Part shown: positions 1,660 through 5,258 of the stretch, piece after piece | How positions within the stretch are numbered: position 1 is the stretch's first letter | How the letters are laid out: each line of letters starts with the position of its first letter | Origin: Deltaproteobacteria bacterium RIFOXYA12_FULL_61_11 | GTDB taxonomy: Bacteria > Bdellovibrionota_F > JAHFAK01 > YA12-FULL-61-11 | Assembly: GCA_001799195.1 (NCBI GenBank) | Contig: MGSU01000313.1 | Coordinates: 1 to 5,258, forward strand | Direction: 5' to 3' | DNA length: 5,258 nucleotides | Program-made: the position numbers and the translations under genes | Notes under the pieces: model-generated | Database searches by the model: none | What the model was told of the DNA's origin: nothing | What the model saw: only the letters and a program-made list of their open reading frames with translations

Positions 1660-1710
1660 ATGTTCGAGCCACACTGTACCTATACCCCCATGTTCGCGTG
1701 GTCGGCATGA
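1660..1710 (+). other. Possible 16-codon leader ORF overlapping the nucleotidase start (ATGA)
   Basis: ATG 1660 opens a 16-codon frame (MFEPHCTYTPMFAWSA) whose TGA stop (1708-1710) overlaps the nucleotidase ATG (1707-1709) as ATGA, a classic arrangement for translational coupling. A GGTGG at 1647-1651 lies 8 bases upstream and could bind ribosomes. The nucleotidase ATG has no clear site of its own. A frame this short may arise by chance. Confidence 0.3.
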
Positions 1711-3542
1711 GCTGGTCGGCGTCTCTGTTCCGCACCATCCTGACCATTTCCCTTCTGGGAGTCCTCACCTGTTCGGGGCACCTCTACCCCACGCCCGCTC
1801 CTGTTCCTCCCATCTCGATCGTCATCATGGGCTTCAATGACCTGCATGGCGCTTTGCAACCCGAGACCTACCCGAATGCTCGAGGTGAACCGGTACCCTG
1901 GGGAGGGATGAGAACCCTTGCCTCCCACCTCGCGGCCTTGCGGGAATACCACGGCGAAGGGCTAGTCGTCGTCGATGCCGGGGATACCGAGCAAGGCACC
2001 CTCGAGAGTTCCCTCGACGAGGGTAGGACCATGATCGCCCTGGAAAACTTCCTCGGGGTCGATGTGGCAGCCCTGGGCAACCATTCCTTCGATTTCGGTC
2101 CAGCCGACCCCGAAACCGGCACCGGGGAACTCCACGGCGCCCTCTACCACCGGCTGTCCGAGGCGCGCTTCCCGATCCTTGCTGCCAATGTGTTCCTGGA
2201 GCGCAACGGGCAGCGCATTCCCCTACCCGGACTTGGCGCCCGCGCCCTGCTCGAGGTGAGCGGCGTGCGGCTCGGCTTTGTCGGCCTACTCACCCCCGAA
2301 ACCAAGGTGACCACCAGGGCTCGCCTAGTCAGTGACGTCGTCTTCGAGGATATGGGGATGGCGTTGCGCCGCGAGGCGGCGGCGTTGCGAGCAGAAGGCG
2401 CCGAGGCCATCATCGCCGTCGTCCACGCCGGAGTCACCTGCCTGCCCGAAGAAGCCCAACCGACCCCTTTGGAAACGGTCGGTACCTGGCGCCGGGATCA
2501 GCCCGAGGCCCACTGCGCCGAGCCGGGCGAGCTCGCGACGCTCCTCGCCACCCTTCCTCCCGGGTTGATCGACGCCGTGGTCATCGGTCACATCCATCGC
2601 CCCGCCCATCATTTCATCAACGGCATCCCGGTGATCCAATCCTCGAGCAACGGTCGCGACTACCACCTCCTCCATCTGTACTTCGACCAACGCACCAGAC
2701 GGTTCTTACCCTCGGCGACGCTGATCGAGGGTCCCATCCAGGTTGCGACCGACACGCAACTCGAGCCCCTGGGAGCCCTGCCCGAGAGACTGCGCCTTCG
2801 GATGAGCCCCCCCGCACCTGCCATCACGGCGCTGATCGCTCAGGCCCTCGAACGCACGGAGCGGCACCGTTCTACGGTCCTCACCCACCTCGCTGAACCC
2901 CTGCCCCATGCAAAATGGGGTGTATCCCCGCTTGGAGGCTTGGTATGCGATGCCATGCGAGAGGCGACCGGCGCAGAGATCGCCTTACTCAATGCCGGGG
3001 CGATCCGCACCTCCTGGCCCGCGGGTCCGATCACCTATGACCAGCTCTATCGCACCCTGCCCTTCGAGAACGAGGTGGTCCTGCTCGACTTGTCCGGCGA
3101 GGAATTGCGCCGTCTCCTGGTGACGGCGTACAGTGGAATCAAAGGGTTGTTCCCGAGTTCCGGCCTCTTGCTGCGGGTACTCTACCCCGGGGAGGGAGTA
3201 CCCTGGGTCGATCTCGACCGCGATGGACAGCCCCAACCCTGGGAACAGGACCGGGTGCTCGAGGTACGGCTCAGCACCGGCGAACCGCTCGTCCCCGGCC
3301 GGCGGTACCTCGTGGCGACCATCGATTTCTTGGTAGAAGGCGGGGACTACACCCGGGCCGCGCTCTCCTCCCTCACTGCCGACCGTATCCGGACAGGCGT
3401 GGAAAAGAGCCTGCGCAAGGTGGTCGAGGAGTATGTGCGTAACCTGCCGTCCCGCACCCTGCTCGGCAGTAGGGTCATACCCAATCCTCCACGCTTGAGC
3501 CTCATCCCAGCCCCCTCCGCTCAATCGGCAACCACCCCCTGA
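1707..3542 (+). CDS. Exported 5'-nucleotidase / UshA-type metallophosphoesterase
   Basis: The 611-aa product probably removes phosphate from nucleotides or related phosphoesters outside the cytoplasm. An N-terminal hydrophobic signal (about 8-22) ends in V-L-T-C, so either signal peptidase I or II could process it; Cys22 would be the lipid site. The metallophosphatase domain (about 36-340) has N-D-L-H-G (D45, H47), D-A-G-D (D93), G-N-H-S-F-D (N125, with H126 and D129 as the catalytic dyad), V-V-H-A-G (H240) and G-H-I-H (H295, H297), so all metal ligands of the family appear present. The C-terminal 5'-nucleotidase domain (about 385-560) has N-A-G-A-I-R (N429, R434), P-I-T-Y, L-P-F (F453) and F-L-V-E-G-G-D. 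Small departures from the family consensus are SPLGGL instead of SNLGNL, and Y after GGD where Gly is usual. An insert at 502-513 resembles an EF-hand loop. The length is close to family members (UshA about 550). I chose ATG 1707 because upstream in-frame starts run into the tRNA gene and this one precedes the signal peptide directly. The exact substrate cannot be told. Confidence 0.93.
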   Translation: MSWSASLFRTILTISLLGVLTCSGHLYPTPAPVPPISIVIMGFNDLHGALQPETYPNARGEPVPWGGMRTLASHLAALREYHGEGLVVVDAGDTEQGTLESSLDEGRTMIALENFLGVDVAALGNHSFDFGPADPETGTGELHGALYHRLSEARFPILAANVFLERNGQRIPLPGLGARALLEVSGVRLGFVGLLTPETKVTTRARLVSDVVFEDMGMALRREAAALRAEGAEAIIAVVHAGVTCLPEEAQPTPLETVGTWRRDQPEAHCAEPGELATLLATLPPGLIDAVVIGHIHRPAHHFINGIPVIQSSSNGRDYHLLHLYFDQRTRRFLPSATLIEGPIQVATDTQLEPLGALPERLRLRMSPPAPAITALIAQALERTERHRSTVLTHLAEPLPHAKWGVSPLGGLVCDAMREATGAEIALLNAGAIRTSWPAGPITYDQLYRTLPFENEVVLLDLSGEELRRLLVTAYSGIKGLFPSSGLLLRVLYPGEGVPWVDLDRDGQPQPWEQDRVLEVRLSTGEPLVPGRRYLVATIDFLVEGGDYTRAALSSLTADRIRTGVEKSLRKVVEEYVRNLPSRTLLGSRVIPNPPRLSLIPAPSAQSATTP

Positions 3543-3692: not shown

Positions 3693-5258
3693 ATGGTACG
3701 CATCCCGCTCCTCGTAGCCCTGACCTTCCTCCTCAACTGCGGCCCTCCCGAATACGACATCCTCGAAGCTCCGGTGGTTTCAGGAAACGGATCCTACAGC
3801 ATCCGCTTCCTCGATACCCCAGGCAGTCAACCGATGATTGCTTGCGCCGACCTGAAGTTCTGCGACCAAGCCAACCAGAACACGGCGAACACCGTTTGGT
3901 GCTATCTCCCCGATGATCAGGGTAACGACTTCTGTTGCTCCGCCGGAGCTTCTTCCTACGATGCAGCGAACGATCGGTGCGTCGGGGATGGTCCGACCCC
4001 TTGCAACGAACTGAGCGAAGCCTGTGGTCTTTCCTCCACCACCGGCATTGTCCCCTGCTTGACCGTGGCCAACCAGCAACAGTACTGCTGTCCCGCAGGG
4101 CAGGTCATCAACGGCTCGAGTTGCGGGGCGCCCCAACTCTACTATGCCACAGGTGGTTTCCCTTCCTGCAGCACGATGAGTTCTGAGTGCCCCGGTTCGA
4201 GCGTGGATGGTGTCGAACCCTGTATGGTCGACGGCACCAATGAATCGAGATTGTGCTGCCCGGCAGGTAAGACCGTGATCAGCGGGGCGTGTGCAACGCC
4301 TGGCTCCTACCCTTCCTGCAGCGGTTTCAGTTCGACCTGTCCCGGATCGAGCATCGATGGCGTTCAGGCTTGCAAGGTCGACGGCAGCAACGAGGTCAAA
4401 CTGTGTTGTCCTGCCGGCCAGGTCGTGGTTAGTGGCGCCTGTGGAACCTCCACAGCAGCCGCGCTCTATCCGTCATGCAGCGGCTTCAGCGCCTCCTGCG
4501 GCGGGGTAACCCTGACAGGCGGGCAAAGCTGCTCCGTCGATGGTACAAATGAAGTGCGTATCTGCTGTCCCCGTGGGCAAACCGTCTTGGAAGGCAATAC
4601 CTGCGGCGTCCAGACAACCCCACCTGTTGATGCCGCACCGGATTGCACCGGCCTGACGGCTCCGACTTGCCAACACGGTGGCACCGCCCATTGCGTCCTG
4701 CCCGCCGGCCGGAACCAAGCTATCTACGAGTGCTGGTGCGTACAACCTTGGCGTGGGGCAACGTGCGAGGTCGACGGCACCGATGCCCCGGCCCCGGCCG
4801 ACTACCCCCCGTGCGGTGGTTCGGGCTGTGAGACCCTGGGCGCTCAGACCTGTGCGAACAACAAGAAAATGAACTGTCAACCCAAGACCGGACTCTTCTG
4901 TCTGGAGAACGTGGTTGCCCAGGATTGTGCCCCCGGCACCTGTTCCACAACCGGCGGTGCGCATTGTGAAGGCGCTGGACCGCAAACCTATCCTTGCGGA
5001 GAAGGCACGACCGGAGGCAATTACCTCCAAGGAGAGAACTGCACCTGCCTGCCCAACTATACCCGTCTCACCGCAGCGACCTGCAAAGCACCGGCTGCAG
5101 CAGCACCCGCAGAACCCGTACCAAACGGCCAGTGCCGGGTCGCTTGGGGAGATCAAGGCTATGCCTATGGCGACACCTACGGCGCGGCCTGCAACTGTCC
5201 GGGCTCTACGTGCCTAGGTACCGATGCTGACGGTAAGGGTTCATGTTGTCGTGGTGGA
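3693..5258 (+). CDS. Cys-rich multidomain surface lipoprotein with six-Cys modules and EGF-like domain (3' end outside window)
   Basis: The frame is open for 522 codons to the last base, so the protein is longer than seen. The signal is MVRIPLLVALTFLLNC; Cys16 is the likely lipid site, although Asn at -1 is unusual for a lipobox. After a linker (17-50) come five tandem modules, each with six cysteines including a CC pair (51-96, 104-144, 159-200, 209-250, 262-304). An EGF-like domain follows (318-358): C-x7-C-x7-C-x12-C-x-C-x8-C with H-G-G after the second Cys and Y-E-C-W-C before the W-x-G-x-x-C end. The rest (374-522) has 18 more cysteines in spacings I do not recognise. By hand count 55 of 522 residues (about 10 %) are Cys, nearly all in even sets, which implies a disulfide-bonded extracytoplasmic protein. 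No catalytic motif is visible. The function is unknown; binding or adhesion is plausible from the EGF-like fold, not shown. It has its own ribosome binding site and probably its own promoter. The antisense frames in this region are shadows. Confidence 0.9.
   Translation, partial: MVRIPLLVALTFLLNCGPPEYDILEAPVVSGNGSYSIRFLDTPGSQPMIACADLKFCDQANQNTANTVWCYLPDDQGNDFCCSAGASSYDAANDRCVGDGPTPCNELSEACGLSSTTGIVPCLTVANQQQYCCPAGQVINGSSCGAPQLYYATGGFPSCSTMSSECPGSSVDGVEPCMVDGTNESRLCCPAGKTVISGACATPGSYPSCSGFSSTCPGSSIDGVQACKVDGSNEVKLCCPAGQVVVSGACGTSTAAALYPSCSGFSASCGGVTLTGGQSCSVDGTNEVRICCPRGQTVLEGNTCGVQTTPPVDAAPDCTGLTAPTCQHGGTAHCVLPAGRNQAIYECWCVQPWRGATCEVDGTDAPAPADYPPCGGSGCETLGAQTCANNKKMNCQPKTGLFCLENVVAQDCAPGTCSTTGGAHCEGAGPQTYPCGEGTTGGNYLQGENCTCLPNYTRLTAATCKAPAAAAPAEPVPNGQCRVAWGDQGYAYGDTYGAACNCPGSTCLGTDADGKGSCCRGG
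3843..4604 (+). repeat. Five tandem six-cysteine modules (about 50 aa each)
   Basis: The modules lie at 3843-3980, 4002-4124, 4167-4292, 4317-4442 and 4476-4604. Copies 3 and 4 share the exact spacing C-x6-C-x10-C-x10-CC-x10-C; copy 5 differs by one residue in the last loop, copy 2 by one in the third, and copy 1 is the most diverged (x5, x12, x10, CC, x13). Copies 3-5 begin with P-S-C-S and contain V-D-G-[TS]-N-E before the CC, which is followed by P-A-G or P-R-G. The period of copies 3 to 4 is exactly 150 bases. The DNA has diverged much more than the protein pattern, so selection has kept the cysteine frame. Confidence 0.93.
4644..4766 (+). other. EGF-like domain coding segment
   Basis: Residues 318-358 of the Cys-rich lipoprotein have six cysteines in canonical EGF order (C318, C326, C334, C347, C349, C358), with QHGG and the aromatic/Gly pattern W-R-G-A-T-C at the end. 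EGF-like domains are common in animal surface proteins and occur sporadically in bacteria, including myxobacteria-like lineages. No Asp/Asn-x-x-Glu calcium-binding prefix is seen ahead of the first Cys. Confidence 0.8.

Follow-up and report, generated by a model that had tools for sequence, protein, structure and literature searches.

We found that the tandem six-cysteine array in the window (the whole stretch of DNA that was analysed, 5,258 nucleotides) represents a real, unrecognised family of modules with an adjacent cysteine pair (CC modules), carried by lipoproteins; the spread of this family, and its EGF-like predicted layout around a CC core, are modestly surprising. A module missed by current libraries is thereby defined, with 26 copies in one genome and an independent home in another phylum. 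The window is the entire contig C313 of a genome of 4.64 Mb (342 contigs, 87% complete), which has one same-class relative, and none closer, in the collection searched. The array lies in an open reading frame (ORF) with GGAGAGG 6 bases 5' of its ATG, and the features of this ORF are listed below, where the spacing of a module gives the residues between its successive cysteines, numbered C1 to C6.

3693..5258, + strand: lipoprotein ORF with 55 cysteines; 522 aa were read, and the frame is still open where the contig ends, without a stop codon
3693..3740, + strand: signal peptide and lipobox L-L-N-C (MVRIPLLVALTFLLNC); lipobox read by eye, an established motif
3843..3980, + strand: module copy 1, spacing 5/12/10/0/13; homology unproven
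4002..4124, + strand: module copy 2, spacing 6/10/9/0/10
4167..4292, + strand: module copy 3, spacing 6/10/10/0/10
4317..4442, + strand: module copy 4, spacing 6/10/10/0/10; AlphaFold pLDDT 85
4476..4604, + strand: module copy 5, spacing 6/10/10/0/11
4644..4766, + strand: ordinary EGF-like pattern C-x7-C-x7-C-x12-C-x-C-x8-C, adjoining the array end
4812..5084, + strand: further cysteine-rich region, with a second C-x-C six-cysteine pattern at its end (4941-5084)
5133..5258, + strand: C-terminal cysteine-rich tail

The general pattern C-x5/6-C-x10/12-C-x9/10-CC-x10/13-C matched five times in this ORF, and the five tandem copies claimed by the sequence-only reading are all present at 3843-4604, with the reservation that applies to copy 1. 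Its observation of strict spacing also held, since copies 3 and 4 share one spacing and copies 2 and 5 depart from it only a little. The proposed signatures are less general: PSCS and VDG[TS]NE were found in copies 3-5 but are absent from copies 1 and 2, and CCPAG is present in copies 2-4, whereas copy 5 has CCPRG and copy 1 has CCSAG. As a test against chance, each copy was tested against a profile built from the remaining four, and its score was compared to those of 500 shuffles in which the cysteines were fixed. The scores of copies 2, 3, 4 and 5 (20, 58, 59 and 42 bits) were reached by none of the 500 shuffles; the score of copy 1 (3.3 bits) was reached by 74 of 500, and this copy is therefore tied to the array by cysteine order and position alone. 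On sequence evidence, copies 2-5 are true repeats that are alike beyond their cysteines. Synonymous sites are saturated among copies 3, 4 and 5 (protein identity of copies 3 and 5 to copy 4 is 57-65%), indicating that the repeats are old and have been kept by protein-level selection, and are not products of recent slippage. The tree of the copies nests as 2,(3,(4,5)), with supports of 99/98, 93/89 and 91/72, and copy 1 falls outside this grouping. Growth of the array from its C-terminal side, as suggested earlier, is compatible with this nesting; however, copy 1 is ungrouped, the alignment has 44 columns, and the direction is not established.

A profile built from all five window copies picked up faint signals on further contigs of the source genome, and these contigs were then read. 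In total, profile searches found 26 CC modules, of which 25 are complete, spread over five contigs and at least five lipoprotein genes; in addition to the window array, these are the following:

contig C93: two neighbouring array lipoprotein genes, 4 + 7 modules
contig C128: array lipoprotein, 6 modules
contig C2: array lipoprotein, 3 modules
contig C73, edge: partial twenty-sixth module

The CC pair is present in 25 of the 25 complete modules, and the commonest form of the family is C-x5-C-x12-C-x8/9-CC-x12-C, with GL-x-C and CCP-x-GKVLN-x-AKTAC-V-x-P; judged by its spacing, the window version is a shortened variant of this form. A profile of the 25 complete modules recovered all 25 at E 1e-10 or better, as well as the partial module on contig C73; as the 25 modules built the profile, only the latter match is independent. 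With a profile of the 20 non-window modules, window copy 2 scored 17.7 bits, compared to 14.5 bits for the best of 1000 cysteine-fixed shuffles, and the other window copies scored low. All five array proteins of the source genome with a readable N-terminus have a lipobox (by eye, LLNC in the window protein and LSAC, LVSC, LLGC and LTAC in the paralogues), and none of the five has Asp at +2, this residue being Gly in the window protein. Weak matches on contigs C20, C48, C262, C247 and C156 were unsupported.

The ends of contigs C313, C73, C93 and C2 fall within array genes, and at the start of contig C197 is the tail of another, related protein, which terminates directly after CCRN and has 70% identity over 32 aa to the tail at 5133-5258. 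Since contigs break in genes of this type, the family is probably larger than assembled, and the breaks suggest that repeats or strain variation defeated the short-read assembly. In their tetranucleotide profiles, the array contigs agree with one another at 0.85-0.95, which does not favour a foreign origin of these contigs. It should be noted that the three CC modules of the lipoprotein on contig C2 (L009:2159-4669) are set among repeats of ~60 aa with GYWRGNQG motifs that are unmatched in Pfam, and that the two neighbouring lipoproteins on contig C93 (L021:2-3681) have a common, unrecognised, cysteine-rich N-terminal domain.

In a first sample across bacteria, none of 385 other genomes matched the module profile at 1e-4. 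In a second phylum (195 genomes of up to 12 Mb), the module was found in three species of one genus, with genomes of ~12 Mb, in the form of a lipoprotein of 140-146 aa (lipobox AMGC, by eye) that has two modules, C-x5-C-x10-C-x10/11-CC-x10-C, and the spacing resembles that of the window version. This homologue scored 20.4 bits with the profile of the 20 paralogous modules (0 of 1000 cysteine-fixed shuffles reached this score) and 9.6 bits with the profile of window copies 2-5 (3 of 1000). Among the three species, dN/dS of the module region is about 0.06-0.19, a value indicative of purifying selection; thus, the module is functional in these genomes. No match was found in 398 genomes of one further phylum, although this search had no positive control and carries little weight, and no module was found in the viral contigs, phages and plasmids searched. 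Two other candidates were rejected. The G054 match is an unrelated protein of 1197 aa without the module. A Methylococcaceae MAG protein (L053:300-1604), which has a CxxCH motif and five mini-repeats of the form C-x3-ILN-x-A-x-TAC-V, repeats only a counterpart of the C5-C6 half of the module, too short for a call of homology.

The claim that the module is unrecognised withstood the searches: no significant match to the window protein was found in Pfam, NCBIfam or PDB sequences, and no description of the CC module was found in the literature searched. Pfam EGF models gave nothing above the cut-off on CC modules; no EGF model appeared in the list of families for the 25 modules, which extended to E 10, and the nearest entry was Fibrillin_U_N (0.055). 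The Lustrin cysteine-rich repeat (PF14625) and granulin (PF00396) resemble the CC module in their CC pairs and tandem repeats, but their best single-copy values (E 0.017 for Lustrin, in one module, and E 0.06 for granulin, in four modules) are far from convincing, and whole proteins gave no match to either family. When PDB sequences were searched with a 29-row profile, the sole matches were factor VII light chains (E 0.8-0.9); the alignment runs from C2 to C6 and has one extra residue between C4 and C5. This pointer is unstable, because an earlier 25-row profile gave plethodontid modulating factor instead (a single weak match, E 0.4).

Single modules were modelled by AlphaFold, with the 25 copies as the alignment. 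The models reached pLDDT 93.3 and pTM 0.70 for a module of contig C93, and pLDDT 85.0 and pTM 0.58 for window copy 4. According to DSSP, C3 and C4 lie in a pair of strands (21-26 and 29-34, or 21-24 and 31-34), and strands further on in both models span C5-C6; the predicted module is therefore compact, with two hairpins, a larger one linking C3 to C4 and a smaller one linking C5 to C6. Such a module, well predicted from 25 paralogues, should be easy to test at the bench. The proposal of a small disulfide-stabilised fold used in surface display is thus upheld in part: single modules fold confidently in prediction and the lipobox fits display, while surface exposure is putative.

The same reading held that the module is not EGF, which is doubtful. 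The cysteines C4 and C5 are adjacent instead of forming C-x-C, but the predicted layout is EGF-like and most of the best, though weak, matches are EGF domains. The highest Foldseek matches were largely of this type for both models (fibrillin, Pfs25, Pfs28 and NELL2 in one list, NELL1, factor Xa and PvRipr in the other), with EGF matches at E about 1 or worse, although CBM14 domains ranked level with EGF for one model; the rows of VIA-align were almost all EGF-type, with Z of 2.8 or less, below significance. The module and EGF-like domains (especially those with a long tail, factor VII/X EGF2 and fibrillin cbEGF) are alike in six cysteines, in the predicted C3-C4 and C5-C6 hairpins, in C5-x(8-12)-C6 with Gly after C5, and in tandem arrays in extracellular proteins; the CC module differs in the adjacent C4 and C5, a longer C2-C3 interval, insignificant scores and its occurrence in bacterial lipoproteins. 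The window C3-x10-C4 and the family C5-x10/12-C6 fall within the EGF range. Predicted structure and sequence profile both point to EGF, neither of them decisively. Given the difference in the C-x-C feature and the scores of curated models, the module is EGF-like in layout but outside the catalogued EGF families. The C-x-C units of the same proteins matched the CC profile no better than did their shuffles with fixed cysteines; they were therefore rejected as intermediates, and no intermediate joins CC modules to EGF. The unit at 4644-4766 itself gave only E 0.31 with Pfam EGF.

We give an even chance to the reading in which the five copies are tandem, undescribed CC modules of EGF-like fold that form a stiff surface stalk on a lipoprotein. 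The protein would be exported and, as indicated by its lipobox, lipidated at Cys16; Gly at +2 fits the outer membrane, where we would place it, as no member has Asp at this position. In the periplasm the cysteines would be oxidised, and each module is predicted to close on its own cysteines, with the main hairpin from C3 to C4 and the minor one from C5 to C6; by analogy to EGF, the disulfides would be C1-C3, C2-C4 and C5-C6. As a stiff rod, the array would keep the C-terminal cysteine-rich part, which contains one EGF-pattern unit, off the membrane, where this part may serve adhesion or recognition. Should the fold prove EGF-like, it would show that rods like the EGF rods of animals are also built by bacteria, around a tighter core of the CC type. 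The stalk role has a model in the TraA receptor, the cysteine-rich repeats of which were proposed as a presentation stalk (PMC3325183, PMC12045341). The TraA repeats of myxobacteria (TIGR04201) are likewise tandem cysteine-rich repeats of a bacterial surface protein; however, the repeat model has 22 positions and the protein has a C-terminal MYXO-CTERM anchor. In the whole source genome, the best TIGR04201 match was 14.5 bits versus a cut-off of 25, on contig C212, which is not an array contig; TraA is therefore an analogy of role, not of kinship.

The EGF likeness could, alternatively, result from the few ways in which short six-cysteine peptides can fold, so that the CC module would be a separate small disulfide fold and the array still a rigid surface stalk. 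The lack of any significant sequence or structure match to a family, the invariant CC pair and the absence of intermediate forms agree with this explanation, which we nevertheless hold to be unlikely, as both models match EGF in hairpin layout and register, and the sequence profile independently gives a coagulation-factor EGF in the same register. Of a similar kind, and about equally probable, is the broader statement that bacteria have here a disulfide fold of their own, not descended from EGF, in lipoproteins that have multiplied in a single deep and barely sampled lineage and also occur in another phylum, in a lineage with large genomes.

Explanations that assign the modules themselves a binding function are less probable. 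If they bound a ligand such as chitin or another glycan, in the manner of the CBM14 (peritrophin-A) chitin-binding domain, the array would provide avidity. CBM14 is a small six-cysteine beta fold, that of chitotriosidase headed the Foldseek list of the canonical module (E 0.77, rmsd 9.1; below significance), and tachycitin, Avr4 and Der f 23 were in the same list. We consider this improbable, since E 0.77 is the best value at an rmsd of 8-9, CBM14 to our knowledge has no adjacent cysteines, unlike the CC module, and the window copies have no conserved aromatic patch. Still more doubtful are displayed protease inhibitors that would shield the cell from peptidases, endogenous or foreign. Inhibitors are commonly built as small cysteine-rich domains in tandem, and putative papain-like and S8-type peptidase ORFs (by eye) were found close to genes of the array type, on contigs C197 and C93; however, no inhibitor family was matched by modules or whole proteins, no peptidase adjoins the window gene or the gene on contig C128, and the neighbourhoods come from one genome only. 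A mere habit of cysteine placement, without common fold or descent, would account for copy 1, which is no better than cysteine-fixed shuffles. This is hardly credible for the array, as copies 2-5 score above every such shuffle and profiles carry across genes and into another phylum.

Several minor observations concern gene neighbourhoods. The putative papain-like (C1) peptidase, assigned by eye (L008:225-1748), lies directly 3' of the cysteine-rich protein tail at the edge of contig C197. In the window, the lipoprotein ORF is preceded by a gene for a 5'-nucleotidase family protein at 1707-3542 (PF02872, E 4e-25) and by an ORF of 402 aa at 240-1448 that had no family in the searches and contains, at 687-743, a 15-base tandem repeat encoding an SNALP repeat. 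A tRNA-Cys (GCA) is located at 1545-1621 of the same contig, ~2 kb 5' of the 55-cysteine protein, and this proximity is probably a coincidence.
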